From positions 1-61,563 of the IMG/VR virus record IMGVR_UViG_3300044678_000872: a DNA stretch of 61,563 nucleotides; one strand, given 5' to 3'. The position numbers were made by a program, and so were the translations under genes. The stretch comes from a virus. This document shows, one piece after another, positions 44,464-57,791 of the stretch; position 1 is the first letter of the stretch; every line of letters begins with the position of its first letter. The notes below the pieces were generated by a model. It was not told the origin of the DNA. It saw only the letters and a list, made by a program, of their open reading frames with translations, and did not search any database.

Positions 44464-45393
44464 GTGTTAGCAGATATCAAAGTAGTTGGCTGCGGTGGCG
44501 GTGGAGTCAATGCTATTAATCGTATGGTTGACATGGGTTTATCTGGAGTTGAATTTGTTGCATTAAATACAGATGCTCAAGCATTAATTACAAGTCCAGC
44601 AAATATAAAATTAGATATTGGTCGTAACGTTACCAAAGGACTTGGTGCAGGTGCTGATCCAGAACAAGGAAGATTAGCAGCAGAAGAAAATATAGATGAT
44701 ATTAAAGATATAGTTTTTGGTTCAGACATGGTGTTTGTTACAGCAGGTATGGGTGGCGGAACAGGAACAGGAAGTGCTCCAGTAGTTGCAAGAGCAGCAA
44801 AAGATGTTGGTGCATTAACAATAGGTATTGTTACTACCCCATTCTTTTTTGAAGGTAAACAAAGAATGAATAAAGCCTTAGCGGGTATAGAAAAATTAAA
44901 AGAAAACGTAGATACTATTATAGTAATTCCTAATGAAAACTTATTAACTCTATTAAGTCCAAAAGTAACTATGACAGAAGCATTTGAAGAAGTAGATACT
45001 ATTTTATTAAAAGGTATTGCTTCTATTACTGATTTAATTACTACCCCTGGATTTATTAACGTGGACTTTGCAGACGTAAGACGTGTAATGGAGAACGCAG
45101 GAACAGCATTTATGGGTCTTGGATTTGGAGAAGGAAAGAATAGAGCAGATCAAGCAGCAGAGTCAGCAACTACTAGCCCTATATTGGATGTTAACTTAAA
45201 GGGTGCAAAAGGTATATTGCTTTCAATTGCATCAGCATCAAATATTACTATGGCTGAAGTTTCAACTATAACAAATGCAGTTTCAGAAAATGCTCATGAG
45301 GATGCAAACATAATTTTTGGTACAGTTGTTGATGAATCACTTGAAGATCAGATTCGTGTAACTGTAATTGCAACTGGTTTTGACGGTGAATAG
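44464..45393 (+). CDS. ftsZ: phage-encoded FtsZ (tubulin-like cell-division GTPase), core only
   Basis: A 309-residue protein that covers exactly the FtsZ core. It has GCGGGGVNAINRM (residues 9-21), NTDAQAL (35-41), GAGADPEQG (61-69), the tubulin signature GGGTGTG (97-103), VTTPFFFEG (123-131), and the T7 loop NVDFADV (199-205) that completes the GTPase site of the next subunit. It ends VIATGFDGE, where bacterial FtsZ would go on to a linker and a C-terminal tail for SepF or FtsA/ZipA. Style (GGGGVNAINRM, ATGFDG) is like actinobacterial FtsZ, not PhuZ or TubZ. Starts GTG after AAGG; stop TAGTG with the next gene. Confidence 0.95.
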   Translation: MLADIKVVGCGGGGVNAINRMVDMGLSGVEFVALNTDAQALITSPANIKLDIGRNVTKGLGAGADPEQGRLAAEENIDDIKDIVFGSDMVFVTAGMGGGTGTGSAPVVARAAKDVGALTIGIVTTPFFFEGKQRMNKALAGIEKLKENVDTIIVIPNENLLTLLSPKVTMTEAFEEVDTILLKGIASITDLITTPGFINVDFADVRRVMENAGTAFMGLGFGEGKNRADQAAESATTSPILDVNLKGAKGILLSIASASNITMAEVSTITNAVSENAHEDANIIFGTVVDESLEDQIRVTVIATGFDGE

Positions 45394-46058: not shown

Positions 46059-46699
46059 ATAACATATATCATTTTTATCACATATACGCTAATGGCAGTT
46101 GGAAAGATCCAGTAGATCAACATATAAAAGCATTAAAAAAATCTGGTTTGTATGAAGAAATAAAAACTTTAAAAATAGGATTAGTTGGTACATCAACAAG
46201 AATACAATCAGTAAAAGATTATTTATTAAGTATAGATATTAACTTTGAAGTAGTTGCAGAAAGTTTAACTGGGTGGGAACAAACTACGCAGATACCATTA
46301 CATCAGTTTGCACAGTCAAATGATGGATATGTTCTTTATGCACACACAAAAGGTGCTCATTCACAACAGCATCCTAACATTCCTTGGAGAGAAACTATGA
46401 TTCATTTTAATGTTTTAAAATGGAAAGAGTGCGTTGAAGCATTAAAAGACCATGACACAGCAGGATGTTTTTGGATACCAAGTGCTCCAAACTCACCAGA
46501 ACATTCTGGACACAATGGGTTTTACGGTGGAACTTTTTGGTGGACAACTTTAAAATTTATTAGAACCTTGCCAGAGCCAATGCTTGATCATAGGTGGAGA
46601 GCAGAGGGGTGGATAGGCATTAGACAAAATATTGATGGGCTAAAACCATTTTCATTCTTGCCAGGTAGTCCAGGAAACTATGTTGCTTTAGATGTCTAA
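46052..46699 (+). CDS. glycosyltransferase-like protein, copy 2
   Basis: A 215-residue protein similar to its upstream neighbour along its length: YHFYHIYANGSWKDPVDQHI, DGYVLYAHTKGA, GFYGGTFWWTTLKFIRTLP. Tandem duplication followed by divergence is clear. Its end overlaps the opposite-strand gene by 12 nt. It may act on host surface sugars or virion proteins; substrate unknown. Confidence 0.55.
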   Translation: MVNNIYHFYHIYANGSWKDPVDQHIKALKKSGLYEEIKTLKIGLVGTSTRIQSVKDYLLSIDINFEVVAESLTGWEQTTQIPLHQFAQSNDGYVLYAHTKGAHSQQHPNIPWRETMIHFNVLKWKECVEALKDHDTAGCFWIPSAPNSPEHSGHNGFYGGTFWWTTLKFIRTLPEPMLDHRWRAEGWIGIRQNIDGLKPFSFLPGSPGNYVALDV

Positions 46700-47464
46700 A
46701 ACAATACATTTAAATCTATTAATAACTAATTCATAATCTTCGTGGCGATTCATATTCTCCATCGTAATACTTTCTATACCATCTAAATTTTTTATACATT
46801 TATTTATATACTTTAAGTAAGTTTTATTTTTCATAAAGTCAGCATAGTTATTGTTAGAAATGTGTATGCTTTTAACATAATTTGGATTAGGCATAGACCC
46901 AGATTCAATGTATTCATTTGCGGTATCAAAATGAGCATAAAGATTATCTATGTTTGACTCTTCTATAAACTTATTAATATAATCAGATTCATATCCAAAG
47001 TTATTGTTATACACCCTTGCATTGTTTTCTAAACAAAAAGATATTCCACGTTTACTAAATATAGATGATACAAAGTCAAAAAATATAAAATACTCAGTGA
47101 CATCGTCTCCCTGCCTTGTTGAAGGAGATCCATAAACTACGTGCTTTGCACCAAGCATAGAAGCATAGACAGCAACCTGATCAAAATGCTTTGAAAGGTA
47201 TATATAATCATCTTTGTTTAATTTACATATCTCAAAGTCTATTCCAAAGGTAATGCTTTGAAATGAATTAACTTTTAGTCCAGCCCTTTGTATTTTAAAT
47301 TTAAGATCTTCAATATCTTTTACTGATACGTCTTGCCATTTTTTATCTAACACATAGGTCAATGGTAGTTCTACATACTCAAAACCATATCTTTTTATTG
47401 TATGTAAGACTGTCTCTAACTTCTCTTCTTCAAGAAGACCTAGCAATGATACCGCTGTTATCAT
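46688..47464 (-). CDS. TIM-barrel sugar isomerase/epimerase-like protein
   Basis: A 258-residue protein with the beta-alpha pattern of the xylose isomerase-like (AP endonuclease 2) superfamily: KRYGFEYVELPLTYV near 25-40, AKHVVYGSP, ISFCLENNA with the conserved Glu, DNLYAHFDTAN with metal-binding His/Asp, and VKSIHISNN. It probably changes a sugar. Last gene of the leftward operon, overlapping the SDR gene by 35 nt. Confidence 0.65.
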   Translation of the reverse strand: MITAVSLLGLLEEEKLETVLHTIKRYGFEYVELPLTYVLDKKWQDVSVKDIEDLKFKIQRAGLKVNSFQSITFGIDFEICKLNKDDYIYLSKHFDQVAVYASMLGAKHVVYGSPSTRQGDDVTEYFIFFDFVSSIFSKRGISFCLENNARVYNNNFGYESDYINKFIEESNIDNLYAHFDTANEYIESGSMPNPNYVKSIHISNNNYADFMKNKTYLKYINKCIKNLDGIESITMENMNRHEDYELVINRFKCIVLDI

Positions 47465-48200
47465 ATATAAATACCCTCATATCCTCTAGTACGTCCTTCT
47501 TGCTAATCAAATAATTCCAATGGTTATAGGTTGTTTTCATATCATATACCACATCAGCCTTCTCAACATAATTTTTTGATTTATATTTAAATAGATCAAA
47601 AACTTCTTGGTTTGTTATAGGTTGGGTAGCACAGTTAAGAATTTTTATATCCTGAGTTTGTACAAATTTAATCATTTGTTGTACAAGATTTACATTTATC
47701 CATTGCAGTTGGTTGTGTGGATTAACTGTATCTAAATAATCATAGTTCCTTGTAATTAAGTCAAAAAGTATGTTCTTCTTCATACCCTCACCATAGACCG
47801 TAGGAAGCCTCAAAATGCGGTAATTTAGCCCTTTTACGGCATCTTCTAGCAGCCTTCTATGGTTGCTATAGGGTTGATCAGAAAACGTCTCATCTAGTTC
47901 AAAATTTCTATTTCCTTTTGAGTAATCAAATATGTCACAAGTGGATATGTGTATTACTTCATTAGCAGTTGAAGCCTTTACAGCCTCTATAAGTCTAGAT
48001 ACCTTAGCCAAATCATCTTGTGGATTTTTATTTGCTTGCCACTTCACGGCTGAAGGTGCTGCAATTATTAGGGTATCGTGATTAATATCTGGTAGTTTAT
48101 GTATATTTTTAGAGTTATAAATATTACCTATTTGTTTGCCATAGTCTTTCATTAACTGTTGACCTATGAAACCTGAGTATCCAACTAAACTAATTGCCAT
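47430..48200 (-). CDS. NAD(P)-dependent sugar epimerase/dehydratase (SDR)
   Basis: A 256-residue extended SDR-like protein. The nucleotide-binding turn is GYSGFIG near residue 8, HISTCDIFDY carries the catalytic Ser/Thr region, and a Tyr-x3-Lys is not plain (YSNHRRLLED; Tyr present, Lys replaced by Arg). Later ILRLPTVYGEGMKKN fits the sugar-binding half. Substrate unknown. Start at ATG 48200 overlaps the previous gene's end. Confidence 0.65.
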   Translation of the reverse strand: MAISLVGYSGFIGQQLMKDYGKQIGNIYNSKNIHKLPDINHDTLIIAAPSAVKWQANKNPQDDLAKVSRLIEAVKASTANEVIHISTCDIFDYSKGNRNFELDETFSDQPYSNHRRLLEDAVKGLNYRILRLPTVYGEGMKKNILFDLITRNYDYLDTVNPHNQLQWINVNLVQQMIKFVQTQDIKILNCATQPITNQEVFDLFKYKSKNYVEKADVVYDMKTTYNHWNYLISKKDVLEDMRVFIYDNSGIIARSS

Positions 48201-49254
48201 CAATTTCCCTCTTAACTAATTCATAAGTAGATACTATAGATGAAATTTTACCACAGAGTACTGATATCACACAACCATCTCTTACAATAGATGTAGTCCT
48301 AAGATCATTAATGTCTTCTCTAAGTTTTACTTTTGGAGACAGATATAGTTCTTTTATTGGGGTAGAATTATTTACTCCTTTAAAATACTCTGAGCAATGA
48401 GTTAATAGTTTATGTATATCAGATTTAAGCATTAGATCTTTATATATTAAATCTCTTCTAAGTTTAGTTATAAATTCTTTGTAGTATACAGTTCTAAAAT
48501 ATGGGGTATAAGAAACACTAGATAGAGTTATATCACCTAATCCATTCTGATAGGCTGATACATACTTACCATCCATAATAGTAATACAAACATCTTCTTT
48601 GAAGAAGTTATCTACAATTGGAATAATACATATCTCATATTTTAAATTAAGCATTTTATCTTTTGACACTATACCAAGGTTAGGACTATTGTATGTACAG
48701 TTAATAATAAAATCATACTTCTCATCATCTATTTTGTTACCATCAATTTCAATAATATTTCTTTTAAGTTTCAAGGATATATTTTTAGAGTTCATAATCC
48801 TTTCTTTAAAGTATTCGTATGCCTTCTTTAAGTTTATAACTTCTTCTGTGGTAGATATCCCACCCTCAATTAGTTCAGTATTCACAAAAGGCTCAACCTC
48901 AAAGTTATCTATTTCTCTAAAGGGTACTCCAAAACTTTTATATTTATTGATATAGTCTTCCAAGTTTACTTTGCTATTCTTTTCTATTAAGTAATAGTTA
49001 TCTTTAACAGGAGATATTAAATCATAATACTTGTCTTTAAATGATTGATAGTTGTTTAGTATTTGATCAATCGTTTCATTAGACCTCGGATAGTGAAACC
49101 CCTTGTGTATTCTATGCTGATTGTTTGAAGCAGCACCTTTAAATATATCTTTTCCTTTTTCATATAAATCAATTTGTATATCTGGATAATCATTTACAAG
49201 TTCTAGGGCAATAGAGCATCCATAAAATCCCGCTCCAATAATTGCAATCTTCAT
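48190..49254 (-). CDS. FAD-dependent oxidoreductase (DAO-like)
   Basis: A 354-residue protein beginning with the FAD dinucleotide fold (IAIIGAGFYGCSIALEL, then DLYEKG for the ribose), HRIHKGFHYPRS as in D-amino acid oxidase-type enzymes, and DFIINCTYNSPNLG. It would oxidise an amine or sugar. In the leftward operon, coupled by ATG overlap on both sides. Confidence 0.7.
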   Translation of the reverse strand: MKIAIIGAGFYGCSIALELVNDYPDIQIDLYEKGKDIFKGAASNNQHRIHKGFHYPRSNETIDQILNNYQSFKDKYYDLISPVKDNYYLIEKNSKVNLEDYINKYKSFGVPFREIDNFEVEPFVNTELIEGGISTTEEVINLKKAYEYFKERIMNSKNISLKLKRNIIEIDGNKIDDEKYDFIINCTYNSPNLGIVSKDKMLNLKYEICIIPIVDNFFKEDVCITIMDGKYVSAYQNGLGDITLSSVSYTPYFRTVYYKEFITKLRRDLIYKDLMLKSDIHKLLTHCSEYFKGVNNSTPIKELYLSPKVKLREDINDLRTTSIVRDGCVISVLCGKISSIVSTYELVKREIDGN

Positions 49255-49970
49255 TAGACTGTCACATTCATTTCAGAAAGTCTGCCGTTCCAGTTTGATT
49301 GGGCTTTGTATATGTCTAAGTATTGAAAGTTTCTAATTCTTCTAGGAGTGCTTGTTCCATATGGATTTTCAATTTGAATAGTTTGATCCCTACTTCCACA
49401 AAGTTCTGTAAAGTTCCCATCTTGATACTTTAATAAATGATCTTCAAAGTCAACGCCCCATTGTTTTTTTAACTGAATCATTCTTGGATCAGTCGATGTG
49501 TTCTTGCAGTTTAAAACTCTATCAATTTGATTGGTCAACCAAGATATTTTATATAATCCTATATTCATAGATACAGTTATGTCTAATGGACATGTATCTC
49601 TACCATCTTCTGGAAAATACTTTTCTAAATTAAACACAAAATTAGGACCAACCCAACAGGTATCGTGCATATAGAAGATGTAGTCGTAATCTTTATAGGC
49701 TTCCTGGTTTTCTACAATATGAATCATGGGGGTATATTCAAATGAATTCTGTTGTTCACAATATATCTTATGTATACCAAACTTATTTCTTAATTCTATC
49801 TCTTTACTAGATGCCTCTATAGGGTCCTGAAAGTCACCCATAACTAACAGGATGCTATCTCTTTTTATTCCAGCCTCTAACAATGACCATATATTCTTAT
49901 CTATAGTTGTTTCATAAAAGCCTTTGCATGAAGATACAGCAAAAAGGACATTGTAGTTTTTTATTCTCAT
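49254..49970 (-). CDS. glycosyltransferase-like protein of the leftward cassette
   Basis: A 238-residue protein with DYIFYMHDTCWVGPNF near residues 93-108, which could be a metal-binding DxD-type motif, and VLFAVSSCKGF and LVMGDFQDP in the N-terminal half. It looks like a small GT-A glycosyltransferase. First gene of the leftward operon, starting about 10 nt after an extended -10. Confidence 0.5.
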   Translation of the reverse strand: MRIKNYNVLFAVSSCKGFYETTIDKNIWSLLEAGIKRDSILLVMGDFQDPIEASSKEIELRNKFGIHKIYCEQQNSFEYTPMIHIVENQEAYKDYDYIFYMHDTCWVGPNFVFNLEKYFPEDGRDTCPLDITVSMNIGLYKISWLTNQIDRVLNCKNTSTDPRMIQLKKQWGVDFEDHLLKYQDGNFTELCGSRDQTIQIENPYGTSTPRRIRNFQYLDIYKAQSNWNGRLSEMNVTV

Positions 49971-50062: not shown

Positions 50063-50491
50063 ATGGTAAGTTCACTAATGCGACAAATGCAACTAGAACC
50101 TTTTTTCTTAGGTTTTGATGATGCATTTAATCAGTTGATGGGATTAAAAAATGACCTCAACAAACATATTTCAAATTATCCACCTTACAATATCAAAAAA
50201 ATTGACGACAATGAATTTGAATTAGAATTCGCTGTTGCTGGTTTTGATAAAAAAGATGTCAAGGTTATGATGGATATGGGCAAACTCCGTGTTTCTGGAA
50301 CAATTGGGGAAAGAGAAGACAGTGCAGAATTTCTACATAAAGGAATTGCTACACGATCATTCTCTTCTACATTTGCTCTAGGAGAACACGTTGAAGTTGA
50401 ATCAGCCGAGGTAGAAAATGGACTACTCAAGGTACGTCTAAAAAAATATCTGCCAAAGCATTTACAACCTAAAGAAATTATAGTAAGATAA
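50063..50491 (+). CDS. small heat shock protein Hsp20
   Basis: A 142-residue alpha-crystallin-type chaperone: VAGFDKKDVKVMMDMGKLRVSG is the core start and ENGLLKVRLKKYLP carries the terminal Leu motif; the N-terminus (LEPFFLGFDDAF) is the usual aromatic arm. It holds unfolding proteins. Similar Hsp20s are known in cyanophages. It has its own strong promoter and a structured 54-nt leader. Confidence 0.88.
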   Translation: MVSSLMRQMQLEPFFLGFDDAFNQLMGLKNDLNKHISNYPPYNIKKIDDNEFELEFAVAGFDKKDVKVMMDMGKLRVSGTIGEREDSAEFLHKGIATRSFSSTFALGEHVEVESAEVENGLLKVRLKKYLPKHLQPKEIIVR

Positions 50492-51334: not shown

Positions 51335-51727
51335 ATGCCACTACATAACCACTTAATGGTTAATGGTTTTACCCTATTCCCACCACAAGATACAAAGTTA
51401 GCAGAAGACTGGATGAAGTCCCTTGTTGAATCAATCGGTATGAAGATTGTTCAAGGTCCTTTTGCATCTTATGTAGATAAAGAAGGAAATCGTGGTTTAA
51501 CAATTGCAACTATTATTGAAACATCTCACATTGCAATGCATGTATGGGACGAGCCAGATCCAGCATTAGTTCAGTTTGATTTATACACTTGCTCAACTCT
51601 AGATGTTGAAATGATATTAAAAAATCTACAAGATAGTATAGGATTATTCAATTATCAAACAATGGTAGTTGAAAGAAAAGAAGGCTTCAATATCATTCCA
51701 GAAGATAAATGGATTGAACTAGCATGA
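51335..51727 (+). CDS. speD: S-adenosylmethionine decarboxylase proenzyme (SpeD)
   Basis: A 130-residue protein of the short bacterial type. The processing site is ETSHIAMHVW with S64 and H69, and C86 in FDLYTCS; these correspond to S63, H68 and C83 of the Thermotoga enzyme. The self-cleaved serine becomes the pyruvoyl group. It supplies decarboxylated AdoMet for spermidine, which may help pack DNA. Cyanophages also carry speD. Confidence 0.85.
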   Translation: MPLHNHLMVNGFTLFPPQDTKLAEDWMKSLVESIGMKIVQGPFASYVDKEGNRGLTIATIIETSHIAMHVWDEPDPALVQFDLYTCSTLDVEMILKNLQDSIGLFNYQTMVVERKEGFNIIPEDKWIELA

Positions 51728-52841: not shown

Positions 52842-53144
52842 ATGGAAAATTATGTTTTGTTAGACTTTTGGGCTGATTGGTGTGCACCATGTAAAATGAT
52901 GAAGCCTATTATAGATAAGATCGAGGCAGACTATCCTAACCTTACTGTGGTTAGAGTAAACGTAGATGAGGACGCGGCGATGGTACAAGACTATAATGTT
53001 AGTTCTGTTCCTACATATATTTTGATGAATAAAGATAAAGAGATTTTGAGTTTCGCGACAGGTGCTATGCCTGAGTTTAAGTTTAAAAAAGAATTAAAGT
53101 TAGATGTTTTAGAGTTCGGCGAAAACAGTACAAATGCTTCCTAA
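52842..53144 (+). CDS. thioredoxin
   Basis: A 100-residue thioredoxin with the WCAPC active site (W13, C14, C17) and the cis-Pro SVPTYI near 63-68. It reduces protein disulfides and may serve the phage redox state or polymerase, as host thioredoxin does for T7. AAGGAG site. No reductase is seen in the window. Confidence 0.9.
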   Translation: MENYVLLDFWADWCAPCKMMKPIIDKIEADYPNLTVVRVNVDEDAAMVQDYNVSSVPTYILMNKDKEILSFATGAMPEFKFKKELKLDVLEFGENSTNAS

Positions 53145-55152: not shown

Positions 55153-55195
55153 TCGGGGTAAATAAAGACCCTTTCTTAATCCTTTATATAACCAT

Positions 55196-55291
55196 ATGAA
55201 CAATAGAACCAATGAAGATATGTTCCTATTCTGGTTTATTATATGCATGTCCATGACCATATTATTGTTCCTAATTACCCCCAAAAAATAA
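55196..55291 (+). CDS. possible small membrane protein (31 aa)
   Basis: A 31-residue frame: NRTNEDMFLFWFIICMSMTI then a Leu-rich run, one membrane segment. No ribosome site is visible, so expression is unproven. Confidence 0.35.
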   Translation: MNNRTNEDMFLFWFIICMSMTILLFLITPKK

Positions 55292-55595
55292 AACAAAATA
55301 GAACAATACTATACTAAATATGTTATAAGATATAAAAATATAGAATGATATGGAATAAAATGGAGGGAAATGGGTGATTGGGCATTTGCCCGCCCTTTCG
55401 TAATCCTTTGCAGCACCGCTGCCCTATCATAATATTTATAATATGTCAATAGTTTTGGGCATATTTTTATATATTCGTAATGTTTTTTTGCCCTTTTATT
55501 TTGCATAATTCTGGGTATATTTTGATAGATTCTTAATACTTTTTGATAGATAGTATATGTATTCTTCCAGATAATATGCAGATTTTTATAGATAA
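55292..55595 (+). other. convergent intergenic region
   Basis: About 300 nt of AT-rich DNA without a gene where rightward and leftward units meet. It holds a small hairpin (GGGCA-TT-TGCCC, 55380-55391), runs such as TTTTTTTG and, near the end, a copy of the ATTCTGGG...TTCTTAATAC repeat. I see no good terminator. Confidence 0.6.
55508..55540 (-). repeat. direct repeat, copy A, downstream of the Ntn-hydrolase gene
   Basis: ATTCTGGG, a 13-nt spacer, then GATTCTTAATACT. A similar copy lies at 56247-56280 on the other side of the gene. Confidence 0.6.
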
Positions 55596-56147
55596 TTATA
55601 TTGAGTCAAAATATATTGGTCCTTTACATGAAGGACTATATTCTATTGCACTTTCTACTGCTATTTTTAATCTTCTATTTATATCTTTGTACCCGCGGGT
55701 TGTGTATAGGGAACCGAAGGCTATGGTGCCGCCCGATCCTATGGCACCTTCGGTGATCTCGTTGAGTTGGAAGTCGGAGGAATCAAATTCGAAGAGGCGT
55801 CCACGCACGGCGATCAACGCCAGGATGCCGCCATCCTTATCATCGGCGGGGGAAGTAGAAGGAGAATATATACCTATAGCATTCTTAAATACTTGACAAA
55901 ATTTAGTTCTTAAAAATCTAGTTAATTCTTTTCCATTATATCCAGAAGGATCTGGAAGATCTATAGAATGTAATAATTGTCCTAAACCTGTTTCACCAGC
56001 ATAACCTATTAAATATTTTCCATTCTTTTGTATCTTAGGATCAATAATAGATATCATAATACTTTCATCCGATGCCCCCGAATCCGCAGCCATAAAAACT
56101 TTGCGGGGGGTAGAAAGATTATCTACTATACCTACTATACAAGTCAT
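55596..56147 (-). CDS. Ntn-hydrolase, proteasome-beta-like
   Basis: A 183-residue protein starting MTCIVGIV, with Thr2 in the place of the catalytic N-terminal nucleophile after Met removal, and VFMAADSGASD with the Asp-Ser turn near residues 18-26, then DGGILALIAVRGRLFEFD and GAIGSGGTIAFGSLY. This is the layout of HslV/20S beta-type Ntn hydrolases. Activity on proteins is possible but not shown. The DNA from about 55690 to 55855 is strikingly GC-rich while the frame stays open. A consensus-like promoter and AAAGG lead it. Confidence 0.75.
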   Translation of the reverse strand: MTCIVGIVDNLSTPRKVFMAADSGASDESIMISIIDPKIQKNGKYLIGYAGETGLGQLLHSIDLPDPSGYNGKELTRFLRTKFCQVFKNAIGIYSPSTSPADDKDGGILALIAVRGRLFEFDSSDFQLNEITEGAIGSGGTIAFGSLYTTRGYKDINRRLKIAVESAIEYSPSCKGPIYFDSI

Positions 56148-56183: not shown

Positions 56184-56212
56184 ATAATACCATTGAATAA
56201 AAAATAAGTCAA
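56184..56212 (-). promoter_or_regulatory. leftward promoter for the Ntn-hydrolase gene
   Basis: On the minus strand TTGACT, 17 nt, TATTAT. Transcription begins near 56177, giving a leader of about 30 nt. Confidence 0.75.
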
Positions 56213-56246
56213 TAACTGGCATTCTTATATAGTCCTTCTTAATACT

Positions 56247-56280
56247 ATTCTGGGAAAAAAATCTTGACATTCTTAATACT
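56247..56280 (-). repeat. direct repeat, copy B, upstream of the Ntn-hydrolase gene
   Basis: ATTCTGGG, a 15-nt spacer, then ATTCTTAATACT. It matches copy A at 55508-55540. A third TTCTTAATACTAT lies at 56236, so the segment is a double repeat. Confidence 0.6.
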
Positions 56281-56287
56281 ATATGGT

Positions 56288-56345
56288 AGAGCCGATCTGC
56301 GCGGACCCAGGACCCCAGGGCACGATCCCTGAGAGCCCAGGTCAA
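56288..56345 (-). other. GC-rich structured intergenic element
   Basis: It contains a 5-bp hairpin (CAGGG-CACGAT-CCCTG at 56316-56331) flanked by CCAGG/CCCAGG runs and GCGC at its left edge. It lies between the leftward gene ending at 56353 and the next promoter, the same place as the tRNA and the other two structured elements. No gene in it. Confidence 0.5.
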
Positions 56346-56352
56346 CTAGGTC

Positions 56353-56619
56353 TTACTTGGCAGCCTCGTCTATCATGTCATCATAGTCTTTATAGTCTTT
56401 GTCTGGGTCTATATCCATTTCTTTACAAAGTTGAACAAAGGTATCGTCTATGATTTTGACACCCTCATCATTTAAGGTACAAAGGTTAGCATTGACAGAT
56501 ATTGCCAATGGAATACCTAAATCATTGTAGGTAAAAAAATCATCATGCAATCCTGTTCCTAAAGTTATGGTAGAGGTACTGAACTCCACAATAGCCTGAA
56601 TTTTATTATCTGTGTCCAC
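56353..56619 (-). CDS. small acidic protein
   Basis: An 88-residue protein starting with GTG (GGAGAGG upstream). N-terminus beta (QAIVEFSTSTITLGTGL), end Asp-rich (DPDKDYKDYDDMID). Overlaps the next gene by 14 nt. Function unknown. Confidence 0.5.
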   Translation of the reverse strand: MDTDNKIQAIVEFSTSTITLGTGLHDDFFTYNDLGIPLAISVNANLCTLNDEGVKIIDDTFVQLCKEMDIDPDKDYKDYDDMIDEAAK

Positions 56620-57148: not shown

Positions 57149-57556
57149 CTATTCTCTATCTAGTTGTACTATGATATTTAACATATCATCATATGGTTTT
57201 TCTGTTATGAAGTACCCGATTCTGTTGACAAAGCACCAACCATTAACAATACAGGTATGCCCCTCTTCATCATCGATATACGTCCAGATACGGTTTGGCT
57301 CATTTTGACCAATAGCAGCCACATGGTCATACTCGGCACCGTAGGTCTCAAACATTAGACCTCCAGAGCCATCGTTAAAGGAAGCATTCTTATCTAAGTG
57401 GTTTACCATTGGTTTAAAATGAAACTCCCACTCTTCTACAGATAACAATACTTGATTGTAGTATGGTGAGTCTGGATTAATATCTGGGTCCAAGCAACTA
57501 CACAACTCGTTGCCACAGAAGTCACAGCCCTCTTCGAATTCTTCACTCACTGCCAT
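57149..57556 (-). CDS. Cys-rich protein of unknown function
   Basis: A 135-residue protein with CDFCGNELCSC near residue 10 and further Cys pairs (HTCIVNGWCF). A zinc- or Fe-binding start is likely. Start uncertain among ATGs at 57565, 57559 and 57556; I chose the last. It overlaps the upstream gene by 14 nt. Confidence 0.5.
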   Translation of the reverse strand: MAVSEEFEEGCDFCGNELCSCLDPDINPDSPYYNQVLLSVEEWEFHFKPMVNHLDKNASFNDGSGGLMFETYGAEYDHVAAIGQNEPNRIWTYIDDEEGHTCIVNGWCFVNRIGYFITEKPYDDMLNIIVQLDRE

Positions 57557-57791
57557 CATCCTCATATAAAATAGTCATGTCAAAGTTATCTAAAGCACCA
57601 TCAGAATATTGAACATGGTCCATATAATTCATATTCATATATTCTTCAATTGCTGTTTCTAACTCATCAGTGTCATCGTCTGCAGTCATATCGTTAAATG
57701 CTGGATAGATATCTGCAATCTCTTCAGCAGACAAACTTACGTTAGCCCACATTTGAAGACCAACTTCAACACTATCTATATACTTAGCCAT
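57543..57791 (-). CDS. small acidic protein
   Basis: An 82-residue protein starting at ATG 57791 after AGGAGG (57800-57805), with SLSAEEIADIYPAFNDMTADDDTDELE. A longer frame upstream is not needed. The first bases overlap the end of the zinc microprotein. Function unknown. Confidence 0.55.
   Translation of the reverse strand: MAKYIDSVEVGLQMWANVSLSAEEIADIYPAFNDMTADDDTDELETAIEEYMNMNYMDHVQYSDGALDNFDMTILYEDDGSE

Follow-up and report, generated by a model that had tools for sequence, protein, structure and literature searches.

An inherited and probably maintained GC-rich island in the gene of an AAH-type proteasome homologue of an actinophage

A proteasome-like gene and its described relatives

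AAH proteins, with WP_035979212 as their representative, are placed in group I as compact, beta-like subunits nearest to BPH and HslV; they are distributed over alpha-proteobacteria and Actinobacteria and also occur in phages, and the study describing them found none in actinobacteria-specific phages (PMC8665760). PPH proteins have about 140 residues and lack the second helix (PMC8665760). WhiB genes serve as a marker for calling actinophages (PMC10202952; PMC6802176). The DNA analysed here, a stretch of 61,563 nucleotides referred to below as the window, encodes WhiB (Pfam). Its host is thus actinobacterial and the AAH-type protein sits in an actinophage, in agreement with the preliminary description, which had spoken of a phage of a proteasome-bearing phylum. 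The gene under study is the following:

55596–56147, minus strand: gene of a proteasome-like Ntn hydrolase (putative AAH type), 183 aa, from the ORF, its homologues, profile matches and a fold model

The ORF starts with MT and contains AADSGASD, as had been read from the letters. The protein has 25 close relatives in IMG/VR (75–99% identity) and a wider family of well over 100 relatives, in which 143 stretches were confirmed; together with a match to the PHROG “peptidase HslV family” (PHROG 1040; E 9.5e-17, residues 1–179), whose functional label is an annotation, this indicates a real gene. In a search with a profile built from 40 family members, BPH ranked best (E 2.4e-8), followed by archaeal proteasome beta and HslV, with E below 0.003 for proteasome beta and HslV. 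The nucleophile Thr2, which would become Thr1 after the predicted removal of Met, is T in 161 of 165 aligned homologues (S in one, gap in three), Asp22 (Asp17) is D in 162 with three gaps, and Lys38 (Lys33) is K in 164 with one gap; Gly51 is proposed as the equivalent of Gly47. The AlphaFold model (pLDDT 88.9, pTM 0.85) has the four-layer alpha-beta-beta-alpha fold, with BPH and HslV as top PDB matches (prob 1.00). The best solved folds are BPH (5ovs, 5ovt, 5ovu) and HslV (1m4y), with TM 0.66–0.75 at 17–21% identity; a ring assembly like theirs is predicted.

Judged by profile matches, fold and conserved residues, which agree with the earlier reading as a proteasome-beta-like enzyme with a threonine nucleophile, the protein is a Ntn-hydrolase of the proteasome/HslV superfamily, and it would probably act as an N-terminal-threonine peptidase in a self-compartmentalising ring. 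An HslV that works with an HslU partner was considered and set aside, since the 61.5-kb record, itself possibly incomplete, gave no AAA_2 or AAA match and hence neither an HslU-type nor another AAA+ unfoldase partner for the PHROG 1040 match. Membership in PPH was rejected as well, given the 183 residues and the modelling of both helices of the first pair (residues 53–61 and 72–94).

The protein resembles AAH as a compact group I type homologue of about 180 residues, beta-like and with BPH as its top match, and it has the matching host spread: most of the genome relatives listed belong either to Azospirillum and Rhizobiales or to Streptomyces, Actinoplanes and Frankia, and the phage relatives comprise many IMG/VR loci. 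We therefore tentatively assign it to the AAH branch, an assignment made by distribution and by a length that excludes PPH. The differences from these genome relatives are considerable, in that the phage protein is only about 30% identical to them, the phage clade has a specific insertion LSTPR and carries AGETGLGQ in place of TSSFRMGQ, and the phage gene is AT-rich with a GC3 island. The analysis places an AAH-type homologue in a phage clade that includes a WhiB-bearing actinophage, the link that the describers of AAH reported as missing (PMC8665760). A claim to the first AAH in an actinophage nevertheless needs care, because Gordonia phage Daredevil, another actinophage, has an uncharacterized protein (A0A345MIR8) with the same predicted fold (TM 0.79), although at 22% identity this protein is absent from the sequence search at E 1e-5.

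Extent, edges and inheritance of the island

There are two islands in the gene, a main one and a smaller one, each with its edge runs:

55689–55853, minus strand: main GC3 island, codons 99–153, from GC3 and the composition of 4-fold sites
55845–55853, minus strand: 5' boundary of the main island, C-run TCC CCC GCC; every compared sequence except L009 has CCCCC
55692–55697, minus strand: 3' boundary of the main island, CGC GGG in the window; most relatives have CGGGGG or AGGGGG, and L040 and L041 have lost it
56076–56111, minus strand: mini GC3 island, codons 13–24, around the catalytic Asp, with GC only at particular 4-fold codons
56103–56111, minus strand: 5' boundary of the mini-island, C-run ACC CCC CGC, from sequence comparison
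56076–56081, minus strand: 3' boundary of the mini-island, G-run TCG GGG, from sequence comparison

An in-frame GC-rich patch had been recognised before, and GC3 bears it out with sharper edges than those given at the time: the transition takes one or two codons. Within the main island GC3 is 0.69–0.70 over 40–55 codons, compared to 0.00–0.33 in 15-codon blocks of the rest of the gene and to a mean of 0.19 (top 40-codon window 0.525) in the other phage genes. When synonymous codons were permuted within the gene, 0 of 20,000 permutations gave as strong a block. At 4-fold sites C is at 0.51 and G at 0.15 in the main island, against 0.05 and 0.03 outside; codons ending in G are thus also raised, contrary to a pure C-ending optimum. 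In the AlphaFold model the island spans the unstructured loop (97–105) that follows the second helix, four beta-strands and one helix, and the loop before helix 156–170, so that its edges coincide with loops.

The mini-island is an addition to the earlier account, which had missed it. Both islands start with C-runs and end with G-runs, which are rare elsewhere; C6 at codons 13–15, G5 at 23–24, C5 at 99–101 and G5 at 151–152 are conserved in most relatives. A general Chi-like motif was rejected, because three of the four occurrences of CCCCCG/CGGGGG in the window fall in this gene. In L041 (2936–3094) and at the 3' end of the gene in L040, the stretch of GC-rich codons runs on into the C-terminal region and the closing G-run is lost, as if this run marked the limit of the island (n = 2).

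A literature search for GC3 islands in phages returned nothing directly comparable. Codon choice reportedly varies along single genes. Here, the invariant residues 44–67 have a GC3 near 0 and the patch has 0.6–0.7, and protein conservation alone would thus not predict the island. Silent sites in the main island rank with the most variable ones in the gene, whereas codons 63–99 just before it are the most constrained, which indicates that composition is kept rather than the exact sequence.

GC3 is higher in the patch than in the rest, with differences of +0.23 to +0.61, in the window and in each of the 24 relatives that cover enough of the gene, down to 75% identity. The preliminary description had suggested another phage, or a copy in a host, as the source of the patch, and had itself named the same bias inherited by close relatives as an observation that would speak against this origin; it is what the 24 relatives display. 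The contigs of this clade are all AT-rich (34–37% GC) and, by their names, derive from about 20 metagenome datasets. The island is restricted to the one clade: in 60 distant homologues the patch-minus-rest difference in GC3 has a mean of -0.01 (sd 0.08), and an effect that is family-wide or driven by amino acids was rejected on this ground.

In the parsimony, folding, GC3 excess, alternative-frame and maximum likelihood (ML) tests on the relatives, the patch was set as codons 100–154, one codon off; this offset cannot create the effect. A two-state ML model with free root yielded an equilibrium GC3 of 0.45–0.59 for the patch and of 0.10–0.16 for the rest, and the equilibrium of the rest was rejected for the patch in all six tree/taxon settings (2dlnL 35–91). 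In parsimony, the patch showed 32–45 AT-to-GC and 52–66 GC-to-AT changes over all three trees. The PHI test shows pervasive recombination, with p < 0.001 for most parts of the gene. Rates based on trees are thus overestimated, the decay test is blurred, and tree-free evidence becomes important: among conserved 4-fold columns, both C and G occur at least twice in 6 of 13 in the patch vs. 1 of 21 outside. Subject to this caveat of recombination, the island does not decay.

Forces that may keep the island GC-rich

We consider it probable that the GC-rich island of this AAH-type gene is maintained as well as inherited. As the force that keeps it, our leading but tentative candidate is selection on translation through local codon choice. 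The island is an inherited block of C- and G-ending synonymous codons over one structural module, in which a continuing force probably holds the composition GC-rich while the rest of the gene stays near the AT-rich optimum of the phage, and codons ending in C might be read faster or more accurately while the module is translated and folds. Instead, an ancestor could have taken up the patch by in-frame recombination from a GC-rich phage or host, followed by a slow drift towards AT. The location of the sharp edges in protein loops would suit such an import, and so would the lower GC3 of more divergent relatives, the lack of correlation between patch and rest in their identities to distant homologues, and the best match of the patch, which lies on a contig of 68% GC (L091; 0.50 for the patch vs. 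0.28 for the rest). However, passive decay is the model rejected by the two-state ML test, with recombination as the caveat, and C and G are both frequent in the same columns. Analysed apart from the rest, the patch protein has a tree in which L077/L078, the sister in the tree of the rest, is accepted as sister too (p-AU 0.62), and a foreign placement was rejected on this ground; scans of IMG/VR and GTDB found neither a GC-rich donor nor a GC-rich close relative, and a first search of genomes with the close clade brought up no host copy. We regard import with subsequent decay as quite improbable. A recently imported mosaic segment was rejected, given the presence of the patch in close relatives and a phylogeny that is not discordant. 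The jump in composition taken alone could also point to an assembly chimera, the mosaic that had initially been a concern; since many contigs, assembled independently in the roughly 20 datasets, show this structure too, a chimera is hardly credible.

GC-biased gene conversion focused on the block, or homologous exchange that recurs there, could keep it rich in GC with no benefit to the phage. It would be in line with the frequent recombination in the gene, with the faster silent change in the patch, and with a per-site AT-to-GC flux that, in the parsimony counts, is raised there at a similar per-site GC-to-AT flux. We nevertheless think it unlikely: the PHI signal runs through the whole gene and is no stronger in the patch, so that a patch-specific hotspot was rejected, the skew of C over G (0.51 to 0.15) is unexpected under a symmetric bias, and the edge motif CCCCCG/CGGGGG hardly occurs in the window outside this gene. 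The conserved edge runs, rare elsewhere, would be accommodated by a nucleic-acid element overlapping the code, that is, an RNA structure, an antisense gene or a protein-binding site in which the complementary C- and G-runs pair or are recognised, and four of the more divergent relatives do fold with z near -3. Yet z against synonymous shuffles averages about -0.8 and is close to 0 within the group to which the window belongs, and covariation is absent (term -0.36 kcal/mol); a conserved RNA structure on either strand was rejected on these grounds. No alternative frame is open across all relatives. An overlapping gene was likewise rejected: a plus-strand ORF of 117 aa (55543–55896) is open in the window, but many relatives have stops in its frame (antisense -1). 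Since, in addition, silent sites vary most inside the patch, such an element also seems to us an unlikely explanation. That the islands represent a new sort of cis-acting element, defined by composition, bounded by inward-facing CCCCCG/CGGGGG runs within a coding sequence and selected on base composition more than on the precise sequence, is a speculative idea to which we give little credence; if true, it would imply control of translation rate, of co-translational assembly or of the fate of the mRNA of a phage proteasome homologue.

Viral genes can contain an abrupt step in GC that is old, inherited and, as is probable here, actively maintained. Because such islands are possible, mosaicism should not be scored on composition alone. 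If the island is selected, its many natural variants offer a ready series for testing silent sites in a small foldable enzyme.

Flanking DNA and neighbouring genes

Upstream and downstream of the gene, the following elements were found:

56184–56212, minus strand: sigma-70-like promoter of the gene, TTGACT-17-TATTAT, with TTGAC(A/T) conserved in relatives
56236–56277, minus strand: two upstream copies of ATTA[AC]GAA (56236 and 56270), from the motif count
55397–55537, minus strand: three downstream copies of ATTA[AC]GAA (55397, 55474 and 55530), in a conserved intergenic block

Two direct repeats of about 33 nt had been noted on either side of the gene. They are real and conserved, in that 55508–55540 and 56247–56280 share ATTCTGGG and ATTCTTAATACT; the intervening bases differ, and what had looked like a simple flanking duplication resolves into copies of the shorter ATTA[AC]GAA. 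In 17 of 18 related loci this motif occurs 1–3 times upstream and 1–4 times downstream of the gene, nearly always on the strand of the gene, compared to 0–0.64 per kb elsewhere in those loci. The upstream copies lie just before the promoter and the downstream copies between convergent gene sets. The simplest guess is a binding site for a regulator.

The conserved intergenic block between the convergent genes (55160–55595) contains TATTGACA..TATGATAGGG, ATTACGA repeats and CAATCACCCATTTTCCTCCATTTTATTCCA, common to nearly all 17 aligned sequences. On its plus strand, GGAGG and ATG GGT GAT TGG are present; a short leader ORF might be encoded there, or else a small RNA. Upstream of the gene lies a GC-rich non-coding segment (56276–56372). 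Several relatives have a tRNA-Asp in this slot, one of them also a tRNA-Glu, and others have a hairpin-like sequence, which suggests that tRNAs come and go here. The segment thus fits a slot for a tRNA or a terminator, but in the window no tRNA was found at this position.

An operon occupies 56.3–61.5 kb, and its homologues regularly precede the gene in relatives. One of its genes (57149–57565) encodes a small Cys-rich protein; this gene and its homologues (in L005, L036, L010 and others) repeatedly reach a GC3 of 0.55–0.68 in a 40-codon window and are possibly a second GC3 island. Codon choice thus varies regionally, so that the island may be a regional feature and not as special as it seems.

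Further genes of the window were noted in passing. A phage-encoded FtsZ is found at 44464–45393, with both its GTPase domain (Pfam, 5e-46) and its C-terminal domain (Pfam, 1e-31). The ORFs at 50063–50491, 51335–51727 and 52842–53144 comprise Hsp20 and S-adenosylmethionine decarboxylase domains (Pfam) and, by eye, a thioredoxin-like ORF. At 46688–49970, minus-strand ORFs that by eye resemble sugar- or NAD-dependent enzymes break the plus-strand gene array.
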